The notes beneath the pieces are model-generated. The model was not told the origin of the DNA and did no database searches. It was given only the letters and a program-made list of their open reading frames with translations. The position numbers and the translations under genes are program-made. Positions 237 through 36,783 of a stretch of DNA of 42,431 nucleotides are shown piece after piece. This stretch comes from Chitinophagales bacterium (GTDB lineage: Bacteria; Bacteroidota; Bacteroidia; Chitinophagales; UBA10324). The stretch spans positions 1 through 42,431 of the forward strand of contig JANWXQ010000032.1 of the NCBI GenBank assembly GCA_025057275.1, in the 5' to 3' direction. The number at the start of each line of letters is the position of its first letter. Position 1 is the first letter of the stretch.

Positions 237-962
237 ATGGAGGCGCTGTTGCGGTATTTCCCTGACCTGACTGACGCACAGCGCCGGCGTTTTGAGCACC
301 TGCAGGCCTTGTATGGTTTCTGGAATGCCCGCATCAATGTGATATCCCGCCGCGATCTGAATTATCTTTACGAGCGCCATGTACTGCATTCGCTGGCCAT
401 AGCCCGCTTTTGCACATGGGTGCCCGGCACACAGGTGGTGGATGTGGGCACCGGCGGAGGTTTTCCCGGCATTCCCCTCGCCATTTATTTTCCGGAAGTT
501 CACTTCACTCTGGTGGATTCGGTGCAAAAGAAAATTCATGTAGTGCAATCCATCATCTCGGAATTGACGCTGTCTAATGCTTCAGCCGTAGCCATGCGTG
601 CCGAAGAACTGAAGCAACGTTTTGACTTTGTTACGGCACGGGCCGTAGCCGACCTGAAGCAGCTGTACCAATGGACCCGCCATCTGGTGAATCCTCAAGG
701 TTTCAATTCCATCGCCAATGGCTGGTTGCTTTTGAAAGGCGGACACCTGGAGGACGAAATCCGCCGAAGCCGTTTACCCGTCATTCCGATTCCGTTGTCC
801 CGGTATTTTACGGAGTCTTTTTTTGCCGGAAAATTTTTGCTATACGTTCCATGCGCATCTGACCAATCAGAAACTCCTTCCGATGCCCACCACACACCGG
901 AACGCGATGGGAGCGCCTTCCCCGATGGCGGGCCAGGCCGCAACCGGAAAATCGGCTCGTAA
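237..962 (+). CDS. rsmG: 16S rRNA (guanine-527-N7)-methyltransferase RsmG, with abnormal C-terminal extension
   Basis: This enzyme methylates N7 of G527 in 16S rRNA using S-adenosylmethionine. The N-terminus (YFPDLTDAQRRRFEHLQALY, then NARINVISRRDLNYLYERH and VLHSL) and the SAM-binding loop VVDVGTGGGFPGIPLA are characteristic of RsmG. LVDSVQKKIHVVQ and the FVTARAVADL motif follow. The family is usually about 205-215 residues; here it is 241. The family-like part ends near FFAGKFLLYVP (about residue 205), and the remaining 36 or so residues are low-complexity and polar. That tail lies over the 3' end of the convergent peptidase gene (96-base overlap). A one-base shift near position 850 would instead end the protein at the TGA at 860-862, four bases short of that gene. 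Either a stop-codon bypass by mutation or a sequence error is likely. Function is certain; the C-terminus is doubtful. Confidence 0.93.
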   Translation: MEALLRYFPDLTDAQRRRFEHLQALYGFWNARINVISRRDLNYLYERHVLHSLAIARFCTWVPGTQVVDVGTGGGFPGIPLAIYFPEVHFTLVDSVQKKIHVVQSIISELTLSNASAVAMRAEELKQRFDFVTARAVADLKQLYQWTRHLVNPQGFNSIANGWLLLKGGHLEDEIRRSRLPVIPIPLSRYFTESFFAGKFLLYVPCASDQSETPSDAHHTPERDGSAFPDGGPGRNRKIGS

Positions 963-3900
963 GGTCAGCGGCTGCAGCTTGTCCCACATCAGCCATCGCC
1001 GGATGGTAAGGGCAATTCCCGGCCCGGCATCCGCATAGAAAGAGGAAAAGTTCATTCGCAACGGTGCGGCTTCTTCCGAAACCATTTCAGCCAGTTGGCC
1101 ACCGTCAACAAACAGGTACAGTTCAGCGCTCAGCCACTGTCGTGTGAAGGACGGGCGCATTCGGAACCATCCGCTAACATCCCACTCCGCATTCAGGGCA
1201 TAGCCGCTGGTGGCTGCAGGCAGCATCGATTCAGGACTTTCGTTAAACGCATAAAGCCAGCTAAACGCTCTGACGTTCAGTCCGCCACCAGCATGCAGGC
1301 GAATGGTAGGATCGCCGTCAGGAGCATACCAGTCAGGAGGAAACCAGCCCCGGCTGCGCAGAAAGCGGTTATCCATCAGCGACTCAGGAGCCGCTCCGCC
1401 CAGGTAGAGCAGGCTTTCGCGCGGGGCATCAGCGCCCGTTCCTGCGCGTACATAAGCACGCAGGCGCAGGATGGTCTTGCCGGTTTGCCATCGGTTGAAG
1501 GCTTCACCTGAAAGATAACTGTAAGCCTGCTGTGAACCGGTAAGCACCGGAGCCCGCAGCATAAGCTGCCACCATCCCGAGCCGCTGAAGTAACGAAACT
1601 GTTTGCGGAAGCTGAGCAGCACGAAGCTGTTCAGGTGGTCGTAGGTCCAATCTTCAGGCCGCAGCAGGTAGCAACTGTTTGTGCGAGGCCGGTAAAGCAA
1701 CTCATATCCCCATTGCCATTCGGTTGCCGTGCGTACAGGTAAGGATATGCGTGTTCGCAACTGATAGACGCCTTCGCCGGCTCGGGCCAATGCTGACCAG
1801 GAGGCGCCGGCAGCAAGGCGGGGGATGACGTTGGAATAGCTCAGCTCAGCATATACCGGCAACGTACGGCACGATGTGTTGCGCAGTACGGTTGCGAACA
1901 GCGGCAGCCCCGTATGACGGCCCGGCCCGGAGTGCAGCGGCTGGGAAAACAGACCGGTTCGGACCCATGCCGTCAGCGCAAATACATGCTTTTTTTCCAT
2001 ATAACTTCCCGACAGGTTAAAGCCGACCTTGAGGCCATCCGGCCCGTTGTACCAGACATCCGGTCTTCCATAAAGTTGATAGCGGGTCCAGTTGACAGGC
2101 TGCTGCAGCAAATAATCCCATCGCATCTGCGGCCGGAACGGCCGTATGTTATCGGGCATATATACATCGGCCATTCGCTGCGAAGGGTCAATGACCACCT
2201 GACGGATTCCCGATGGGATAAACACCTTCATGTCGTAAGCGGGATGCAGCCGGTCCCAACCGTACCACTTGGGCAGTACAGTGGATTCAGTGGATTTGAT
2301 ATACCAGGTATTGGGAATATGAAAGGAATAGCTGCGGTGGTCTTTGGCCATAACGGTTACATCCAGTGAGGATTGCATGCGGCCTTTCCGGCTTAATCGG
2401 ATGCGGTAGCAGTCTGTTTCACCGTTGCAGGGAATGCGGCTGGCGGCTCCATGAGTTCGCAGGGGCAGCGGTACATAGGCCGAATCCTGTTTGAGCGGAC
2501 GCACCGATCGGATTCCGTAATCCAGCTTTTTGGTGGTTTCCAGCCATTGATCAAAAAACCAGTTCAGGTCCATTCCGGTGCGTTCCGAGACGGCGAGGCG
2601 GAAATCTTCCGGGTAGGGATGGGCCAGTTTCCATTTATCGAAATAGTGCTGCATGACCACAAGAAACAGACTGTCGCCCAACACATATTGCAAATTGTAT
2701 AACATGGTCGCGGTCTTGAAATAGACCATGCGGTATCCGCCGCCATGCCCCAGGGCGCTGTTGAAGCCATCGCTGTGCTGGTTAACGGGCTCGTCGGTGC
2801 CGCTGATGGCTTCCAGCAGGTAGGGATGATACACGCGCTGATGATGCTGAATGAGGGGACTTCGGTGTTTGCGCAGGTAACGATTGTCCGGCGGCAGGGA
2901 AGGAAGTGTATCACCAAAAATGCGGCGCATGGCCCAGCTTTCCAGAAACTGGGTAAACCCTTCATCCAGAAAAGCCCGGTAGGTTTCGTTGTTGGCCACG
3001 TGACCAAAAAACCACATATGGCCTACCTCATGGGCAAGAAGACCAAAGTAGCCCGGAGAACGTCCGCCGTCCAGAGTGACCATAGGATATTCCATGCCAT
3101 CGGCAGCATCGGCAACAATGATCTTGGGCCACAGATAAGCCCCGAAGTCGCGCGAGTAAATGGTAATCAGCAGCGCGGCAAAGTCAGCAGCATCCTGCCA
3201 AAAGGCCGCATGCGGTTCCTGGGCCAATGCCTGACACAAGACCGTTCGTTCGGCGCCTGTGTGAGGATCAAATACGGTGGCATACGTTTCTCCGATGCGG
3301 TAGGTAGGGTCAGCAGTAAAGGCAAAGTCGTGCACGTTCTCCGCATAAAAGTGCCAGGTTTTTCGCTGCTTGGGATCATATGGAATGATTTCAGAAGCTT
3401 TGCTGTTCCAGGGTTTGTCAGCAAAATTTTTCAGATCCAGTTGCTGGCGCAAGGCGGCGGGCAACACTTCGGATTCGTTCAGCAACGTGCCGGTGGCCCC
3501 CACCACGTAGTGGGAGGCCAGGGTGAGCTGCACATCAAAAGTTCCGAAATTGCCGTAAAACTCCCGGCCCAGGTGTTGATCGGTGTTCCATCCGGCCCGG
3601 GCGTCGTAAACACAGATGCGGGGGTACCAATGCACCCCATCGTAATGCGTGTAGCCATTGACGGGAAATTTCTTCATGCGCCTGCGCTGCGAGCCGGAAT
3701 CAAAAAAGGTGGTAAAAACCAGATGAAACGTCATGGAATCCTCAGGCAGCAGGGGGCGAGGTAATTCCATACGCACAATGGAAAAATCCTGTTCCCATGT
3801 CAGGGGAATGCCGTCGGCGGTTACCTGCTCCAGCAAACAGCCTTTTCCGGCCGACTCATAGGGACCAAACTGTTGCTTGACCGCATTGGCCCGGTTGAGC

Positions 3901-4217
3901 GCCTCCAGATGCCCTCCTTTGACAAAGGCCTGCTGGTATAAATGAAAAAAAACCTCATGCAACGTGTCGGGGGAATTGTTCCAGTACACCAACCATTCCG
4001 AACCGGATATTTGATGCGTGCGCTCATCGACCGACGCCACAATGCGGTAATACACATCCTGCTGCCAATAAGCAGCATGCGGCATTCGGTTTTTCCAGTA
4101 GTAGGGATTGGCTTTGCTGCGGTAGTCGTTTGGCGGCCGGTTCGGGTCGTAGCCGGCCATTTGTGCCTCTGCCGCCAGAACGGCCAGGGTGGCAAGCAAA
4201 ACCAGTATCTTTAGCAT
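867..4217 (-). CDS. Secreted M1-family zinc metallopeptidase fused to a probable outer-membrane beta-barrel
   Basis: A 1116-residue protein starting at ATG 4217 with a clear signal peptide (MLKILVLLATLAVLAAEAQ); another ATG lies four codons upstream at 4229. The gluzincin motif is HEVGH at residues 396-400, with the third zinc ligand Glu419 in DEGFTQ, exactly HExxH-x18-E. GMEYPM upstream takes the place of the M1 exopeptidase GAMEN motif. The peptidase part ends near residue 570. From about residue 705 to the end the sequence changes to alternating aromatic/polar strands with turns (for example DGLKVGFNLSGSYMEKKHVF) and finishes in GIALTIRRW, LTLRADFPV and a terminal FRCVVGIGRSF. This resembles the C-terminal strands of Omp85/surface-antigen barrels and ends in the usual Phe. 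I infer a peptidase anchored by its own barrel. Peptidase class is secure; the barrel is an inference. Confidence 0.85.
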   Translation of the reverse strand: MLKILVLLATLAVLAAEAQMAGYDPNRPPNDYRSKANPYYWKNRMPHAAYWQQDVYYRIVASVDERTHQISGSEWLVYWNNSPDTLHEVFFHLYQQAFVKGGHLEALNRANAVKQQFGPYESAGKGCLLEQVTADGIPLTWEQDFSIVRMELPRPLLPEDSMTFHLVFTTFFDSGSQRRRMKKFPVNGYTHYDGVHWYPRICVYDARAGWNTDQHLGREFYGNFGTFDVQLTLASHYVVGATGTLLNESEVLPAALRQQLDLKNFADKPWNSKASEIIPYDPKQRKTWHFYAENVHDFAFTADPTYRIGETYATVFDPHTGAERTVLCQALAQEPHAAFWQDAADFAALLITIYSRDFGAYLWPKIIVADAADGMEYPMVTLDGGRSPGYFGLLAHEVGHMWFFGHVANNETYRAFLDEGFTQFLESWAMRRIFGDTLPSLPPDNRYLRKHRSPLIQHHQRVYHPYLLEAISGTDEPVNQHSDGFNSALGHGGGYRMVYFKTATMLYNLQYVLGDSLFLVVMQHYFDKWKLAHPYPEDFRLAVSERTGMDLNWFFDQWLETTKKLDYGIRSVRPLKQDSAYVPLPLRTHGAASRIPCNGETDCYRIRLSRKGRMQSSLDVTVMAKDHRSYSFHIPNTWYIKSTESTVLPKWYGWDRLHPAYDMKVFIPSGIRQVVIDPSQRMADVYMPDNIRPFRPQMRWDYLLQQPVNWTRYQLYGRPDVWYNGPDGLKVGFNLSGSYMEKKHVFALTAWVRTGLFSQPLHSGPGRHTGLPLFATVLRNTSCRTLPVYAELSYSNVIPRLAAGASWSALARAGEGVYQLRTRISLPVRTATEWQWGYELLYRPRTNSCYLLRPEDWTYDHLNSFVLLSFRKQFRYFSGSGWWQLMLRAPVLTGSQQAYSYLSGEAFNRWQTGKTILRLRAYVRAGTGADAPRESLLYLGGAAPESLMDNRFLRSRGWFPPDWYAPDGDPTIRLHAGGGLNVRAFSWLYAFNESPESMLPAATSGYALNAEWDVSGWFRMRPSFTRQWLSAELYLFVDGGQLAEMVSEEAAPLRMNFSSFYADAGPGIALTIRRWLMWDKLQPLTLRADFPVAAWPAIGEGAPIAFRCVVGIGRSF

Positions 4218-5428: not shown

Positions 5429-7357
5429 TCAGAACAGGTCGCAGCGTTGTACCCGTAGGGTATTCCCGTCAGGAAAAATTTTAATCTGTTTGATGGTTAA
5501 TGGCACTTCCTGGCCGCCTGTGTATTGCTGAACAACCTTTCCCGACTGTATGAGGCGACCCCGGTAAAAATTAAACCAGCACAGCTCGGTGCCATCAGGA
5601 AAATTGCGAAACGCTTGTGTGCGACGCAGTGTTACGTCTGACACAGCGTATTCAGGCAGTCGAAGTGGAATCAGCGAAAGGTCATTTAACGTACGCTGCT
5701 GAACAAAAAGTTTTACCTGCCACAGGCTATCGCTGTCAATAATGGAACTGTCCACCCAATCCAGATTGGCATGCAATGAGCCGATGGGGTCACCATTGTA
5801 ATAGGGAGGCACGGTGACGTTATCTGCTCCGGGATTGCCATTTAATATACTATGGGAAAAAGCAGGATAAGAGCGGGTCGTTGCAAATCGAAGTAATTCT
5901 GCAGGCGAAAGGGTAGGCCAGGCATTGTTGCTGCCGCCGCCATGTTCACGTAAATCCCACATGTACACGCCTCCGTGCCGGGTGGCAGTAACGCTGTCAT
6001 ACAACGTGAGTTTTTCCTGCCAGCAGGTGTTTTTGTCCTCCTTTCCGTTTACCGCCCTTAAAAAGGGCAGGGAACGAAACCGGTTGTAGGAAAGCATATA
6101 AGGCATATTGGTTAAATCATAAATTTTCCATGTGGAATCGCTGTTTGAACCCTTAGGAATATCCGTAGGCAGATTGGTCAGGTCTTCATGACCCCACAGG
6201 GCCCGTGTTTCTTTCCGGGCTGAGCCGTTGTTATTGAACTTGCAGTTTGGGTTGGTATCATCGGGTGCACTCACCCAGAAGCGGCTTTCACTCAGGTTTC
6301 CGGCAGCAAACCGGTGGGGCTCCAGCATGGCGAGCAGAATGACACCCGCACACCCCTGCGAGTTCCCCACCAGATAGATGCGTTGGGTGTCCAGGGTTCC
6401 GGGAAAGGTGCGCATCAGCCAATCCAGTTCCCATCGGATGCGATAGTAGGTATAGGCACGAATAACTCCGGTACTCGGGAAGGGATCGTTTTTCTTGCCC
6501 TTGTAGATATTAAAATTTTCACTGTAACCAAGCCATCGCGTATTGAAACCGGCTTTAGGGTCGAAATTGAAAGCAGGGATCCAGTCGTCGAATCCGATTT
6601 TCCAACTGTTGGGAATTTTGGTGGCAATCATGTTGTCAATGAAGTTGCCTTTTCCTCCATGAAACTTGAGGTAAACGGCATTGTTTCCGCCCACTGGTCC
6701 CGATTTCACCACGCTGAAGTGAAACGGCAGGCACCCTTCATTGGTCATGGCCGGATAGCCCGGAACGGATACGTTGGTGCCGTAATGCAGATACACGGCC
6801 ATCGTTTCACCCGAAGTGGACCCGGGCACCGGTACGCCGGTTTTCTGCAAATAACAGGTGATGGGTTCCATGTGCTGCACTACGGGTTGCGTGGTGGCGT
6901 TGGAATCGGGTACTACCTTGAACGGTTTGACTTTGCTGCAGCCGGCCCGCACGGCAAAATAGGCCAGTGCTCCTTCAACGGTGCAGTTGGTAACGAAAAG
7001 GTTGTGAAAGGTATCTACCAGCGTATATGGCGTGTCGTTGGTAATGAGAAACGAATTACTGTCCGGATCGCCAAGCGCGTAGGAAAGACGGAAATCCCAA
7101 CTGAAGTTGTAAGGAACGCGGCCCAGATACGTACTCTGAACCAGCGTCGCCGAATCCACAATAGGCGTGGGGCTCTGATATACATAGTAAAAGCCGGTAT
7201 CGCAGGAGGGGATGTTTTTCCAGGTGATAAACATCTGACCGTTGCGGTATTCGGCCTGGATGTTGGAAACAATCTGCGCTCTGGCGGGCAAAGTCATCAG
7301 GCCGATTAAACCTAAAGCGACAACGCGCAAACGGCACCACACAATTTTTGCTGTCAC
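5429..7357 (-). CDS. Secreted protein with fibronectin-III-like N-terminus and alpha/beta-hydrolase-like core, function unknown
   Basis: A 642-residue protein starting at GTG 7357 (in-frame GTG 7342 also fits) with a signal peptide ending ARAQ. Residues about 28-150 (IQAEYRNGQMFITWKNIP and a following Tyr/Thr-rich stretch) resemble a fibronectin type III sandwich. The middle contains YLVGNSQGCAGVILLAMLEP, a G-x-S-x-G nucleophile elbow after a beta strand, and later WDLREHGGGSNN, a possible catalytic His. That layout suggests an esterase or other alpha/beta hydrolase, but I do not recognise the family and see no T9SS sorting domain at the C-terminus (KIFPDGNTLRVQRCDLF). It is the last gene of the leftward run, 32 bases after pabB. 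Substrate and final location are unknown. Confidence 0.7.
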   Translation of the reverse strand: MTAKIVWCRLRVVALGLIGLMTLPARAQIVSNIQAEYRNGQMFITWKNIPSCDTGFYYVYQSPTPIVDSATLVQSTYLGRVPYNFSWDFRLSYALGDPDSNSFLITNDTPYTLVDTFHNLFVTNCTVEGALAYFAVRAGCSKVKPFKVVPDSNATTQPVVQHMEPITCYLQKTGVPVPGSTSGETMAVYLHYGTNVSVPGYPAMTNEGCLPFHFSVVKSGPVGGNNAVYLKFHGGKGNFIDNMIATKIPNSWKIGFDDWIPAFNFDPKAGFNTRWLGYSENFNIYKGKKNDPFPSTGVIRAYTYYRIRWELDWLMRTFPGTLDTQRIYLVGNSQGCAGVILLAMLEPHRFAAGNLSESRFWVSAPDDTNPNCKFNNNGSARKETRALWGHEDLTNLPTDIPKGSNSDSTWKIYDLTNMPYMLSYNRFRSLPFLRAVNGKEDKNTCWQEKLTLYDSVTATRHGGVYMWDLREHGGGSNNAWPTLSPAELLRFATTRSYPAFSHSILNGNPGADNVTVPPYYNGDPIGSLHANLDWVDSSIIDSDSLWQVKLFVQQRTLNDLSLIPLRLPEYAVSDVTLRRTQAFRNFPDGTELCWFNFYRGRLIQSGKVVQQYTGGQEVPLTIKQIKIFPDGNTLRVQRCDLF

Positions 7358-23178: not shown

Positions 23179-23234
23179 CTGGAGCGGCGCCTACAAAAGC
23201 CTGCAACTGCAACTGGCGGTGTCGGTCAAAATGG

Positions 23235-23242
23235 TACCTTTG
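23235..23242 (+). promoter_or_regulatory. Putative -7 element of the T9SS cargo gene
   Basis: TACCTTTG, an exact TAnnTTTG match, 27 bases before the ATG at 23270. A good -33 TTTG is not obvious upstream. Confidence 0.45.
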
Positions 23243-23269
23243 TTAGACAGCAAAACCATCAGCCTTTTC

Positions 23270-25294
23270 ATGAAACAGTTAGCCGTTTTCGTTTTGATTT
23301 TTGCCTGGCATTCAGCCAGTGCACAGGCGTTTAAATACCCCTTGTTTGAACACTTTACCCAGGCCAGTTGCGGACCCTGCGCTTCACAGAATCCGGGATT
23401 TCAGTCCACCATCCTGGATCCGAATCCGCACAGCGTCCGGCACATTGCTTACCATACTTCCTGGCCGGGCGTTGATCCGATGTACACCGAAAACCAGGCG
23501 GCCAACAATGCCCGGGTGAGTTATTACAGCATTACGGGCGTGCCCACTATTGTGCTGCAGGGCAATTACAAGAAAGGACAACCTGGCGCCATGACCATGG
23601 GCGACGTGAACTACATCATCAGCCAGACCAGTCCTGTAAAAATTACCGTTACCGACACTGACAACGGCAGCACGCACGACGTTACCGTCCGGATAAAAAG
23701 TATTGGTACGCCGCCTTCGGGTAGTTTTCGCCTCATGACAGTCATTATTGAGCGCAACATTTGGTACACCAACCCACCCGGAAGCAATGGAGAAAAGTAT
23801 TTTCCCAATGTCATGCGCTACATATTGCCCACCAACAACGGGGAATTGATTACGCTGCCGGCACAGGGCAACGAAGCGGTTTATACCTACACTTACACCG
23901 AAGATCCGGACTGGAACATGGCAGAAATTGGGGTGGTGTCGTTTTTGCAGCACAGCACCACCAAGGAAGTCATCAATGTAGGTTCCAGCTTTGATCAAAT
24001 TCAGAATGCGCTGCTGCAGGCCCCTGCGGTAACTGCCCAGCAGGCTCAGGCAGGACAATCGGTAAGCTTTTCCCTTCAGGTAGGCAATGGCGGTTATGCC
24101 GATGAAGATTTTGTCATTGCATTTTCTTCCGATGCTCCGGCCGACTGGTCAGCTGATCTGCTCATCGATGGCAACGTGGTAAGCAATCCGGCTACGGTTT
24201 CGTTGGCTGCTGATGTTTGGAAAGGTTTTTCATTGCAGGTTCAGGTAGGCAATTCTCCGGCTCTGGCAACGTATGAAATCAGCATCAGTTCGGCAGCCAA
24301 TCCGTTGGCGCCCCAGATGAAGGCGCTGTTGTATGTGATCAGCGGCATCACCGACCTGGTGATCAACAATGCTGCAGGCAACGGCGTAACTCCGGGCGAT
24401 GCTTCAGCATGGGAGGATGATTTTCTCAACGGCCTTGCTTACAGCGGCAATACAACCTATGCTGCTGCCATGCATCCGGCAGCACTGGCGGTTTGGCAAC
24501 AGGGTGCACTGCAGGGTGTGCAGCACATCTATCTCAATGTGGGCTGGACGTTTCCCGGTTTGCCGGAAGAAATGGTTACCATGCTGAAATCCTTTATGGA
24601 TCAGGGCGGTAACGTTTTGATCACCGGACAGGATGTGGCCTGGGAATCATTTGATAATAATTATTCCCCCTATGCGTCCGTTAACAAACAGAACTTTCTG
24701 AAAGATTATTTCAAGGTGGATTTTGTCAGCGACGGCAATTCATCCAACAAGCCTCTGACGGCCAACATGAACGACATCTTCACCAGTGTGCCCTCGGCGA
24801 CTATCAACGCTTATTATGGCACTTCCTACTTTTACCCGGATCAGCTCAAACTGGTCAGCGGAGGCATTCCCGTCTTTTACTACAATAACAACACCGCCAA
24901 AATCGCAGGCATTCGTGCCGAAAGCGGAGGACATAAGACGGTGTTTCTGGGCGTTGGCCTGGAAATGATCGGTACGGCAACAGATAAGAATAACATTATC
25001 AAAACCACGCATGACTGGTTTCATGGACTGATCTCTTCAGCAGAATGGGAAGCAGTTCTTTTAGGCTTTTCGGCCTATCCCCAGCCGGCCTCGTCGGTGC
25101 TGACGCTGCAGGTGCCGCGCGCCGGCTTGCTGGAAGCATATGATCTCTGCGGCCGCAGGGTGCACAGCCAGCAAGTCAGCGGAAATGGGCTAACCGTGCA
25201 TTGGAACGTTTCCGGATGGGCTGCAGGACACTATGTCGTTCGCTTTACCGATGCAGAAAGGCAACATGCGTTGTTGATCAGCGTGCTGCCGTAA
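23270..25294 (+). CDS. T9SS-exported Omp28-like protein with thioredoxin-type CGPC motif
   Basis: A 674-residue secreted protein. The signal peptide (MKQLAVFVLIFAWHSASAQ) is followed by a thioredoxin-like domain beginning YPLFEHFTQASCGPCASQNP, with a CGPC redox motif, and GVPTIVLQGNY, where the conserved cis-Pro of the fold is expected. This layout is that of Omp28-related proteins. A middle domain of about 115 residues has repeated beta strands (VGNGGYADEDFVIAFSSDAP), and another covers YSGNTTYAAAMHPAALAVWQ to the KTTHDWFHGL end. The last 80 residues (YPQPASSVLTLQVPRAGLLE, YDLCGRRVHSQQVSG, AAGHYVVRFTD) are a type A T9SS sorting domain. It should be moved across the outer membrane and attached or released. 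Convergent with the methyltransferase gene, 10 bases apart. Confidence 0.88.
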   Translation: MKQLAVFVLIFAWHSASAQAFKYPLFEHFTQASCGPCASQNPGFQSTILDPNPHSVRHIAYHTSWPGVDPMYTENQAANNARVSYYSITGVPTIVLQGNYKKGQPGAMTMGDVNYIISQTSPVKITVTDTDNGSTHDVTVRIKSIGTPPSGSFRLMTVIIERNIWYTNPPGSNGEKYFPNVMRYILPTNNGELITLPAQGNEAVYTYTYTEDPDWNMAEIGVVSFLQHSTTKEVINVGSSFDQIQNALLQAPAVTAQQAQAGQSVSFSLQVGNGGYADEDFVIAFSSDAPADWSADLLIDGNVVSNPATVSLAADVWKGFSLQVQVGNSPALATYEISISSAANPLAPQMKALLYVISGITDLVINNAAGNGVTPGDASAWEDDFLNGLAYSGNTTYAAAMHPAALAVWQQGALQGVQHIYLNVGWTFPGLPEEMVTMLKSFMDQGGNVLITGQDVAWESFDNNYSPYASVNKQNFLKDYFKVDFVSDGNSSNKPLTANMNDIFTSVPSATINAYYGTSYFYPDQLKLVSGGIPVFYYNNNTAKIAGIRAESGGHKTVFLGVGLEMIGTATDKNNIIKTTHDWFHGLISSAEWEAVLLGFSAYPQPASSVLTLQVPRAGLLEAYDLCGRRVHSQQVSGNGLTVHWNVSGWAAGHYVVRFTDAERQHALLISVLP

Positions 25295-34080: not shown

Positions 34081-36783
34081 ATGCGCAGTTTATTTCCCCG
34101 CTGGATCAGGTCCGTTGTGTTGAAGCGCACCCTATTTTTTGCGAACATTGCCGCTCTGTACATGCCACCGGCACAGGCTACCCATAACCGCGCCGGGGAA
34201 ATCATCTACCAGCATGTTCAGGGCTTCACTTATAAGGTGACCATCATCACTTATACCAAACAGAGTTCCGTTTCTGCTGACCGCGACAGCCTGGAAATCA
34301 ATTGGGGCGACGGCCGTTCGGATACATTGCCCCGCGTAAACGGCAACGGCAACGGCGTGCCGCTGGGAAATGATATCAAATACAACGAATATGTTGGGTA
34401 TCACACCTATCCGGCCCTCGGCACGTATGTAATTTCGGTAACCGACCCCAACCGCATTGCCGGCATCATTAACATCAACGGAGGCAACAGCGTAAACGAG
34501 CCGTTTTACATTGAGGATACCTTACAGATTCTGGACCCTGCGTTTTACGGATACAACAATTCCCCGATTCTGCTGAATCCCCCCATTGATTTTGCCAACA
34601 TCAATGTGCCTTTCATACACAATCCCAACGCCTATGACCCCGACGGCGATAGTTTAAGTTTTTCGTTCATAGTTCCCCGCAAGGCGCCGAATGTTGCTGT
34701 AGCCAACTATCTGGATCCCCACCTGCTGCCGGGAACGCCTTCGGATAAAACATTTACTATTGACCCATACACCGGGGAGGTGGTCTGGGATGCGCCGTAC
34801 TATTCCGGCACCTACAACTTTGCCATTCTCATTCGCGAATACCGCAACGGATTGTGCATTGGCACGATGGTCCGGGATATGCAGGTGATTGTGGATAATG
34901 TCAACAACCTTCCGCCGGTGGTGGTGCGGCCCAATGATACCTGTGTTGTTGCCGGCACCACGTTGACAATCACGGTAACGGCTACCGACCCCAATTCCGG
35001 TCAGAAGGTGATTTTAACTTCCAATGGCGGACCTTACGAAGTGCCCGTCAGCCCGGCTACGTTTACTGCCATCAGCGGAACGCAGGAGGCCACCGGTTTT
35101 TTTGAATGGAAAACCGACTGCAGCCACATCCGCCCCCAATTTTATCAGGTGATTTTCAAGGCTACGGACAATTACTTTTTTCCGCTGGCCGATTTGAAAA
35201 ATTGGCTCATCCAGGTGGTTGGCCCGGCACCGGAGAACGTGCAGGCTATCGCTGAGGATAACCAGATCCGGATCAGCTGGCAGGCGCCGTATGCCTGCGC
35301 CGCCACCTCGCGGTTTATTGGCTTTTCGGTATGGCGCAGGGAAGGCAGTAATCCGTTTGTCCCCGGTCAGTGCGAAACCGGACTTTCCGGAAAAGGATAC
35401 GAGAAGATCGCCGAATACCTGACGAATTATGAATTCATAGATCAGAACGTAATCAGGGGCAGACAGTATTGCTATCGCATCCTTGCTGAATTTGCTGACA
35501 AGGCGCTTTCTCAAAACATTCCCATTTACTATAACAATGTGTACAGTTTACCCAGCGCAGAAGCCTGCGTTCAGTTGCGCAAATCAGTGCCGGTGATTAC
35601 CCAGGCAAGTGTTGTGGTTACCGACGGGCAAAACGGGAAAATCCGTATCGGATGGTCGCCTCCGCTGGCCGCTGAACTGGACACCGTGCAAAACCCACCT
35701 CCTTACCGGTATGTGTTTTGGCGCAGCCTCACGGGTGGAGGGTTTGATCGGCTGGATTCGATTTCGGCTCCTGCTTTTTATCTGCTGACCGACAGCGTTT
35801 ATGACGACTCCGGGCTGAATACGGTAGCGCAGGGATATACCTATAAAATCGGATTTTACTCCGGACAGAACTTCATCGGTGAATCCGAACCGGCAGCCAC
35901 CCTGTTTCTGGTGCCGGTAGGCAAAGATGGCCGCGTGGAGCTGAGCTGGTCAGTGAATGTTCCCTGGACCAATCAGTATTACGTCGTATACCGTAAAAAT
36001 TCCAGTGGCAACTTTGATAGCATCGGCACCAGCCTGACGCCCTTTTATGTAGACGATTCCTTGCCCAACGATGTAGCGCAATGCTACCTGGTCAAAAGCG
36101 TGGGCAGCTATTCGGCGAGCGGCTTGCCTAAGCCGCTGATCAATTTCTCGCAGGAAGCGTGTGCCGTTCCGGTGGATTCGGTGGCACCCTGTCCGCCCGT
36201 ATTGGAGGTGTACAACTCCTGCAATTCCGCCGATTTCCCGTATGACGATTTTGTTAATGAATTGATCTGGGAGCCCGGAGGAGCCGAATGCGCAGCTGAC
36301 GTGGTCGCCTATGTTGTTTACTATGCACCCAACCCGCAATTGCCGCTGGTGCCGCTTGACACCGTGCCGGCGGGCCTATCGCTTAGTTACCTCCATCAGC
36401 TGGAAACCGGCGTAGCAGCTTGCTATGCGTTGACAGCTGTGGACGATAAAGGCAATGTCAGCGGTTTCTCCAACCGCGTTTGTACGGAAAACTGTCCGTT
36501 TTACGAACTGCCCAATGTATTTACACCCAATAACGACGGCCATAACGATACCTACCATCCTTTTCTTCCCTATCGTTTTGTCGACCGGGTAGATATGAAA
36601 ATTTTTGATCAATGGGGAACGTTGGTTTACGATACCACCGACCCGATGATCCGTTGGGATGGCCGTAATTCCCGGACGGGCAGTGTGCTCCCAGAAGCGG
36701 TATACTATTATGTGTGCGAGGTGTACAGTAACAACCGCAGGGTAGGCGACACCCGCTCTGGATATATTCACCTGTTTCGGTAG
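34081..36783 (+). CDS. Large surface protein with T9SS type B (gliding-motility C-terminal) sorting domain
   Basis: A 900-residue protein. The N-terminal signal is long (MRSLFPRWIRSVVLKRTLFF to the PAQATHNRAGE cleavage region). THNRAGEIIYQHVQGFTYKV starts a conserved extracellular domain. PKD/cadherin-like (NAYDPDGDSLSFSF) and several fibronectin III-like repeats follow (DNQIRISWQAP, KIRIGWSPPL, RVELSWSVNV). Fixed cysteines are spread through it. The last 90 residues (NVFTPNNDGHNDTYHPF, MKIFDQWGTLVYDTTD, WDGRNSRTGSVLPEAVYYYV) are the type B sorting domain that directs export through T9SS. Likely a cell-surface adhesin or structural protein; the partner is unknown. ribE follows 34 bases later. 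Confidence 0.9.
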   Translation: MRSLFPRWIRSVVLKRTLFFANIAALYMPPAQATHNRAGEIIYQHVQGFTYKVTIITYTKQSSVSADRDSLEINWGDGRSDTLPRVNGNGNGVPLGNDIKYNEYVGYHTYPALGTYVISVTDPNRIAGIININGGNSVNEPFYIEDTLQILDPAFYGYNNSPILLNPPIDFANINVPFIHNPNAYDPDGDSLSFSFIVPRKAPNVAVANYLDPHLLPGTPSDKTFTIDPYTGEVVWDAPYYSGTYNFAILIREYRNGLCIGTMVRDMQVIVDNVNNLPPVVVRPNDTCVVAGTTLTITVTATDPNSGQKVILTSNGGPYEVPVSPATFTAISGTQEATGFFEWKTDCSHIRPQFYQVIFKATDNYFFPLADLKNWLIQVVGPAPENVQAIAEDNQIRISWQAPYACAATSRFIGFSVWRREGSNPFVPGQCETGLSGKGYEKIAEYLTNYEFIDQNVIRGRQYCYRILAEFADKALSQNIPIYYNNVYSLPSAEACVQLRKSVPVITQASVVVTDGQNGKIRIGWSPPLAAELDTVQNPPPYRYVFWRSLTGGGFDRLDSISAPAFYLLTDSVYDDSGLNTVAQGYTYKIGFYSGQNFIGESEPAATLFLVPVGKDGRVELSWSVNVPWTNQYYVVYRKNSSGNFDSIGTSLTPFYVDDSLPNDVAQCYLVKSVGSYSASGLPKPLINFSQEACAVPVDSVAPCPPVLEVYNSCNSADFPYDDFVNELIWEPGGAECAADVVAYVVYYAPNPQLPLVPLDTVPAGLSLSYLHQLETGVAACYALTAVDDKGNVSGFSNRVCTENCPFYELPNVFTPNNDGHNDTYHPFLPYRFVDRVDMKIFDQWGTLVYDTTDPMIRWDGRNSRTGSVLPEAVYYYVCEVYSNNRRVGDTRSGYIHLFR

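Follow-up and report, generated by a model that had tools for sequence, protein, structure and literature searches.

A single gene of a Chitinophagales bacterium, at positions 867 to 4217 on the minus strand of contig JANWXQ010000032.1 (assembly GCA_025057275.1; the whole stretch of 42,431 nucleotides analysed here is called the window), joins an M1 family peptidase to a C-terminal outer-membrane barrel of the Omp85 type, the barrel being confirmed by structure prediction. We propose that the product is a zinc aminopeptidase that is anchored in the outer membrane, faces the periplasm and trims peptides at the outer membrane. We put the probability of this reading at roughly two in three, and the physiological role is its weakest step. 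Omp85 barrels are familiar mainly as machinery for the insertion or transport of proteins. The example of PlpD shows that an Omp85 scaffold can carry an enzyme too (PMC11116518). Searches of open-access literature found no published fusion of an M1 peptidase with an Omp85 barrel. The protein appears to represent a new enzyme-Omp85 architecture, whose membrane half is invisible to Pfam, and which is found in much of one order and has relatives throughout the phylum. The features of the gene and its product are given below; conservation, here and throughout, was counted in an alignment of 78 sequences, the window protein among them.

867 to 4217, minus strand: whole gene, M1 peptidase plus Omp85-type barrel, 1116 amino acids plus stop
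4164 to 4217, minus strand: putative signal peptide, residues 1-18, with an AEA end before Q19 (helix 2-19 in the model)
2493 to 4085, minus strand: M1 domains I and II, residues 45-575 (PF01433 and M1 fold match)
3018 to 3032, minus strand: HEVGH zinc-binding and catalytic motif, residues 396-400 (H396, E397 and H400 invariant, 78/78)
2961 to 2963, minus strand: third zinc ligand E419, completing HEVGH-x18-E (invariant, 78/78)
2148 to 2492, minus strand: M1 domain III (beta domain), residues 576-690 (all-beta in the model; hhalign)
2079 to 2147, minus strand: short linker, residues 691-713 (full and barrel-only models)
882 to 2078, minus strand: predicted 16-strand Omp85-type transmembrane barrel, residues 714-1112 (models, fold searches, hhalign, motifs)
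1209 to 1436, minus strand: loop L6 between strands 11 and 12, residues 928-1003 (76 residues)
1263 to 1289, minus strand: L6 lid motif GGGLNVRAF, residues 977-985 (family consensus GGGLNLRGY)
1098 to 1112, minus strand: strand-13 motif FVDGG, residues 1036-1040 (inside the predicted strand 1029-1046)
870 to 872, minus strand: C-terminal Phe, residue 1116 (F in 75/78, L in 3)

The reading frame opens with an ATG at 4217 and ends with a stop codon at 869-867. An alternative GTG upstream would lengthen the open reading frame (ORF) to 4301, and we kept the ATG because the signal peptide follows directly after it. By inspection this signal peptide appears to be of the signal peptidase I type, without a lipobox cysteine, and would be cleaved; Q19 is kept in 71 of the 78 sequences. 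AlphaFold2 modelled the whole protein with a predicted local distance difference test score (pLDDT) of 85.9 and a predicted template modelling score (pTM) of 0.86.

In the full-length model, 16 C-terminal strands run from residue 714 to residue 1112. The first VIA-align search used the whole model and its results were filled by M1 structures, for which reason the barrel was then modelled and searched by itself. The model of residues 691-1116 (pLDDT 83.8, pTM 0.83) again has 16 strands if two short interruptions are treated as they were in the full-length model. Foldseek matched the barrel to 101 PDB entries at E ≤ 0.001 (best E 2.9e-8), and only BamA or TamA occurs among the 50 of these 101 that were listed. 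With VIA-align (Z 18.6-20.4), only BamA, TamA or Sam50 occurs among the 50 matches listed, BamA of Flavobacterium johnsoniae being one of them. Identity to BamA and TamA in the structural alignments is 9-14%. Fifteen of the 16 strands alternate in hydrophobicity by at least 1.9 on the Kyte-Doolittle scale, a figure that has no null distribution behind it. The original prediction, made by a model from the letters of the window alone, had proposed a 16-strand Omp85 barrel at residues 705-1116 that ends in Phe. The fold, the strand count and the terminal Phe all held, and the start of the barrel has to be moved to the first strand at 714. A soluble beta fold, of immunoglobulin or another type, in the C-terminal part would have spoken against a barrel, and the models show none.

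Sequence-level searches of the barrel half gave nothing, which made the fold searches and a profile-profile comparison necessary: in direct Pfam and NCBIfam scans nothing was reported there, Pfam detecting only the peptidase, and the window protein has no PF01103 match at E up to 1. Compared by hhalign, the barrel family reaches Prob 91.6 against 30 Omp85 proteins of related genomes, and controls from the same genomes reach 0.1 (FadL-type) and 1.5 (DUF5686); these are single comparisons, whose E-values are uncalibrated for a database. The original prediction had suggested a comparison with Omp85 profiles, PF01103 in particular, and needs correction in that PF01103 itself does not match this protein. 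A PF01103 search of 40 relatives gave below-cut-off matches within two orthologues, at the same profile region (G002 contig 215, E 2.6e-4; G028 contig 6, E 9.9e-4; E per genome). DUF5686, a carboxypeptidase-plug family with a C-terminal barrel, was considered as the nearest barrel and ruled out by its hhalign score.

The fusion recurs in other genomes. A pattern scan of genome contigs found at least 593 stretches, at least 557 of them with a relative, and the best 80 were taken. In 77 of these 80 the fusion is full length and colinear; the remaining three loci were dropped, two being cut by contig ends and one containing N. Since the fusion is colinear in so many relatives, it is not an assembly accident. 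By their titles the best 80 are all from Bacteroidota except two, one Azovibrio and one Phycisphaerales metagenome-assembled genome, which are probably mislabelled or contaminated. The absence of any Pfam or NCBIfam match in the barrel half would fit a soluble beta domain at the C-terminus, or an artefact of annotation or assembly. Such an explanation is extremely improbable in view of the recurrence of the same fusion in independent assemblies, the 16-strand models, the Omp85 fold matches and the alternating hydrophobicity of the strands.

Omp85 barrels carry a (V/I)RG(Y/F) motif at the tip of loop L6 and an (F/G)xDxG motif on strand 13, and the Arg of the former pairs with the Asp of the latter and locks L6 as a lid (PMC4490367). 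Both motifs can be recognized in the window family. At the L6 motif, R983 and Y/F985 are present in 78 of 78 sequences and G at position 984 in 76; on strand 13, F1036 and D1038 are invariant (78/78) and G1040 is found in 77. By regular expression, the motif pair occurs in 77 of the 78 family members and in 29 of the 30 Omp85 controls, and among 1560 shuffled sequences, taken as background, 59 have it; tails of soluble M1 proteins gave 0 of 15, yet they are too short for a fair negative. BamA of F. johnsoniae also has LRGY at the L6 motif (PMC12611786). L6 is unusually conserved for a loop, with a mean of 0.63 as compared with 0.20 for L2 and 0.25 for L7. Its length, its conservation and the lid motif in it make it probable that the barrel lumen is closed, and L6 with its lid-lock pair would fill this lumen.

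The enzyme half belongs to the M1 family, as judged by its zinc site, its fold and PF01433. The Pfam scan matches PF01433 at residues 393-558 with E 1.6e-13 and 51.2 bits (cut-off 27.7), and the N-terminal two thirds of the model aligns by VIA-align with solved M1 peptidases (best Z 27.4, root-mean-square deviation 2.9, 460 aligned). The complete gluzincin site that had been read from the sequence is indeed there and invariant. E376 and the presumed catalytic Y499 are likewise invariant in 78 of 78 sequences, and E376, the glutamate expected to read the free N-terminus of the substrate, is intact alongside the zinc site. Domain III (residues 576-690) reaches hhalign Prob 99.5 against the tails of soluble M1 relatives and 0.1 against Omp85 proteins with POTRA domains, although it occupies the position where Omp85 proteins carry POTRA; Pfam scans found no POTRA. 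In most M1 enzymes a helical domain IV follows domain III. As we read the models, the barrel takes the place of this domain IV. Soluble bacterial M1 peptidases of about 610-660 amino acids have the same three domains and catalytic residues and end after domain III.

With loops numbered from strand 1 onwards, the odd-numbered ones total 176 residues and the turns that alternate with them total 43. The long loops of outer-membrane barrels face outside, and a periplasmic position is therefore predicted for the M1 domain and for both termini. The model thus suggests that the M1 domain faces the periplasm rather than the cell surface. Residues 691-713 form a linker that is ordered in the full-length model, where its pLDDT blocks exceed 90, and not in the barrel-only model; because the linker is modelled with confidence only when the M1 part is present, the M1 half and the barrel may be in contact. 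A precedent is PlpD, the prototype of type Vd autotransporters, whose enzyme domain was shown in 2024 to stay periplasmic (PMC11116518).

The opposite orientation had been the one first proposed, with the protein as an unusual version of a patatin-type (type Vd) autotransporter that places a protease at the surface of an organism with a type IX secretion system (T9SS). The organism does have this system, as judged by 138 matches to TIGR04183 (T9SS cargo tails) in its genome. The rest of the proposal found no support, since the protein lacks a patatin domain and POTRA, and the loop pattern together with the PlpD precedent favours the periplasm. In such a scheme the barrel would serve for autotransport in the manner of type Vd, leaving the M1 domain outside, attached or released. 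The plan of an enzyme followed by an Omp85 barrel is indeed that of PlpD, long regarded as a secretion system (PMC6555100), and the organism has many surface and secreted proteins. However, a folded M1 part of about 650 residues is too big for a 16-strand barrel, L6 with its invariant lid-lock pair should close that barrel, the enzyme domain of PlpD itself is periplasmic (PMC11116518), and the organism already has T9SS for its surface enzymes, among which is an M1 frame that ends in a T9SS tail. A surface location is possible as the second-best orientation, and a surface-displayed peptidase is on the whole an unlikely account of the protein. Pfam and NCBIfam scans at E up to 1 found no T9SS C-terminal sorting domain in the window protein, whose C-terminus is a barrel strand.

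The likeness to PlpD and the patatin-like Omp85 proteins lies in an N-terminal enzyme and a C-terminal 16-strand Omp85 barrel in one chain. Type Vd proteins (PlpD, FplA) are defined by a patatin-like passenger, a single POTRA between passenger and barrel, and a location of the passenger outside the cell that is disputed for PlpD itself, whereas the window enzyme is an M1 peptidase and not a patatin lipase; Pfam finds only PF01433, with no patatin and no POTRA. According to the account in PMC6555100, the type Vd passengers described by 2019 are lipases or esterases only. The window protein is therefore not a type Vd autotransporter. Neither is it a canonical POTRA-bearing Omp85 protein such as BamA, TamA or FhaC: it shares the barrel fold and both lid-lock motifs with BamA and TamA, and has an enzyme where those have POTRA. 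Heinz and Lithgow (2014) defined the Omp85 superfamily by its barrel and described ten bacterial subfamilies, some without POTRA (PMC4104836). By this definition the window protein belongs to the superfamily as a POTRA-less member, and its domain arrangement falls outside the ten subfamilies. Their "Metallo" subfamily has a non-POTRA enzyme domain ahead of the Omp85 barrel as well; it carries PF00149, termed a metalloprotease there (PMC4104836) and a calcineurin-like phosphoesterase by its Pfam name, and the Pfam scan found no PF00149 in the window protein. The word "peptidase" is absent from the text of PMC4104836. The "noNterm" subfamily has a POTRA-less barrel likewise, but no peptidase domain. 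Proteins of the "Metallo" type also exist in nearby Bacteroidota genomes: in the same order, L290:2186-6103:- is a 1306-residue Omp85 fusion with a PF00149 domain. Another Omp85 fusion there, L289:2248-5958:-, has 1237 residues, with PF01103 at its C-terminus and no domain assigned to its N-terminal part. A protein of a further relative (L286:64-3162:+; G009, contig 167) shows a different zincin-Omp85 architecture: it has HELVH...WFIEGLAEY in its N-terminal part, a beta-propeller of the PD40 type, and a barrel in which VRGY and FFDGG occur. Judged by its sequence, it resembles the published WD40-Omp85 class, preceded by a peptidase-like domain.

Under the periplasmic reading, the protein would be exported by Sec with a cleaved signal peptide, and the barrel assembly machinery (BAM) would insert its C-terminal 16-strand barrel. 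M1 domains I to III would then hang from the barrel on the periplasmic side, at the POTRA position of BamA and TamA, and the barrel would substitute for the helical domain IV, which closes the active site of most M1 enzymes. The peptidase most likely trims peptides at the inner face of the outer membrane, and we would guess at imported oligopeptides or fragments of unfolded exported proteins as candidate substrates.

A related possibility is that the barrel retains an insertase- or translocase-like activity and the peptidase clears stalled or misfolded outer-membrane proteins there. M1 enzymes as a rule work on peptides from the free N-terminal end, a preference that fits such a task poorly, as do the lack of POTRA for receiving substrates and a patchy distribution, the fusion being absent in 12 of 40 relatives. 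It would agree with the Omp85 fold and its intact signature motifs, with the zinc peptidase BepA, which does such work at BAM in Escherichia coli (PMC8423444), and with the part in periplasmic quality control proposed by Heinz and Lithgow for their enzyme-Omp85 class (PMC4104836). We consider this role in quality control rather unlikely.

Several observations weigh against a periplasm-facing, barrel-anchored aminopeptidase as we propose it. GxMEN is the exopeptidase motif of the M1 family. At this position the window protein reads DGMEY (residues 373-377), with Met and Glu kept and Tyr in the last place, and because of GMEY in place of GxMEN strict aminopeptidase activity is not certain. Its lid motif is VRAF and not VRGF/Y, an Ala-for-Gly change shared with one other of the 78 sequences. 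The barrel profile, searched against PDB sequences, found no Omp85 chain and one chance match (E 0.13). The predicted orientation rests on loop lengths and precedent, and the placement of the M1 part relative to the barrel is read from pTM only. Finally, no conserved neighbour genes that point to a pathway were found in the 80 loci and the first 14 kb of the window.

Of 40 relatives, 38 gave a match of some kind at E 1e-10, and in 28 of the 40 a match extended into the barrel. The fusion also occurs in the cultured species Taibaiella soli and T. helva, in which the architecture is open to study. Bacteroidota entries annotated as "M1 family metallopeptidase" with about 1000-1100 amino acids may be outer-membrane proteins, which bears on surface proteomics and on models of peptide use in Bacteroidota.

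The barrel profile had matches in 52 of 296 genomes sampled from across the phylum, and many of these matches are stand-alone ORFs of 399-472 amino acids. Eighteen such loci were fetched with 11-13 kb of sequence; 16 hold a stand-alone barrel and two a fusion. The stand-alone barrels (L238-L251, L254, L255; about 400-440 amino acids) lack POTRA as well as a peptidase domain, gave no Pfam or NCBIfam match in those scanned, and are the nearest relatives of the window barrel (hhalign Prob 100). In several genomes they adjoin greA, a NUDIX gene, ackA and pta. A split gene with a neighbouring M1 part was ruled out, the M1 profile finding none in all 16 stretches of 13 kb.

The genome of the window also encodes a second M1 protein, on contig 95 (L037:130-3291:-; 1054 amino acids), with a barrel-like C-terminus of about 400 residues and an M1 half 34% identical to that of the window protein. 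M1 matches at E 1e-30 occur in 192 of the 296 genomes, mixing frames of about 1000 amino acids with soluble ones of about 640, and frames of the length of this second family are common in the phylum. Nine other long proteins (group O) are linked to the barrel family of the window by hhalign Prob 100 over 372 columns and to the second family by Prob 98.0 over 394 columns. Against Omp85 proteins, group O reaches 92.7, the stand-alone barrels 93.4 and the second family 25.6, all at the same Omp85 columns; the motif pair is present in 14 of 17 stand-alone barrels, 3 of 9 group O proteins and 4 of 30 members of the second family. These comparisons make it probable that the second family has this architecture in a drifted form; because of its hhalign score and its few motif pairs, it is less certainly Omp85 than the window family. 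A different M1 match in this genome lies on contig 20 (35615-36601), in one 653-residue frame with a T9SS tail match, and is probably a soluble M1 peptidase exported as T9SS cargo.

Since M1 relatives occur in soluble form, barrel relatives occur alone and the genome of the window holds a second M1-barrel family, the peptidase and barrel parts are modular. In a tree of 69 M1 domains, rooted for drawing only (the careful search finished, the bootstrap not settled), long forms lie on both sides, and a single clade of 16 members contains the 15 soluble forms together with one long form. On this tree three changes between long and soluble labels are enough, as compared with 26.7 in shuffles. The simplest reading of the tree would be an old fusion with later loss of the barrel, and gains are also possible. 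A bolder idea, which we regard as quite unlikely, is that these proteins form an ancient modular "protease-gate" class of Bacteroidota, a POTRA-less barrel whose lid can open with a peptidase cutting at its periplasmic mouth. If so, peptides entering or proteins leaving through the barrel would be cut there, one genome would hold two diverged versions, and modules that are separate proteins in other lineages may still cooperate.

Neighbouring genes were counted over 81 sequences, as lower bounds since many loci are cut by contig ends. The commonest is a BrkB/YihY-type gene (17 loci, mostly directly upstream on the same strand), followed by an rlmH-like SPOUT methyltransferase (15), dprA (14, divergent as in the window) and nadC (14). 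They were rejected as functional partners, for they appear as two regional backgrounds. In the window, the M1-barrel gene and the rsmG (GidB) ORF overlap tail to tail by 96 bases (867-962); the latter has 241 amino acids, and its Pfam match stops at 178, leaving an extra C-terminal tail. Adjoining dprA is an exported-looking ORF of 642 amino acids (5429-7357, minus strand) with no Pfam match at E 0.001. Further along, the window encodes two likely T9SS cargo proteins, one with an Omp28 domain and a weak sorting tail (23219-25294, plus strand) and one of 900 amino acids with a CHU_C signal (34081-36783, plus strand).

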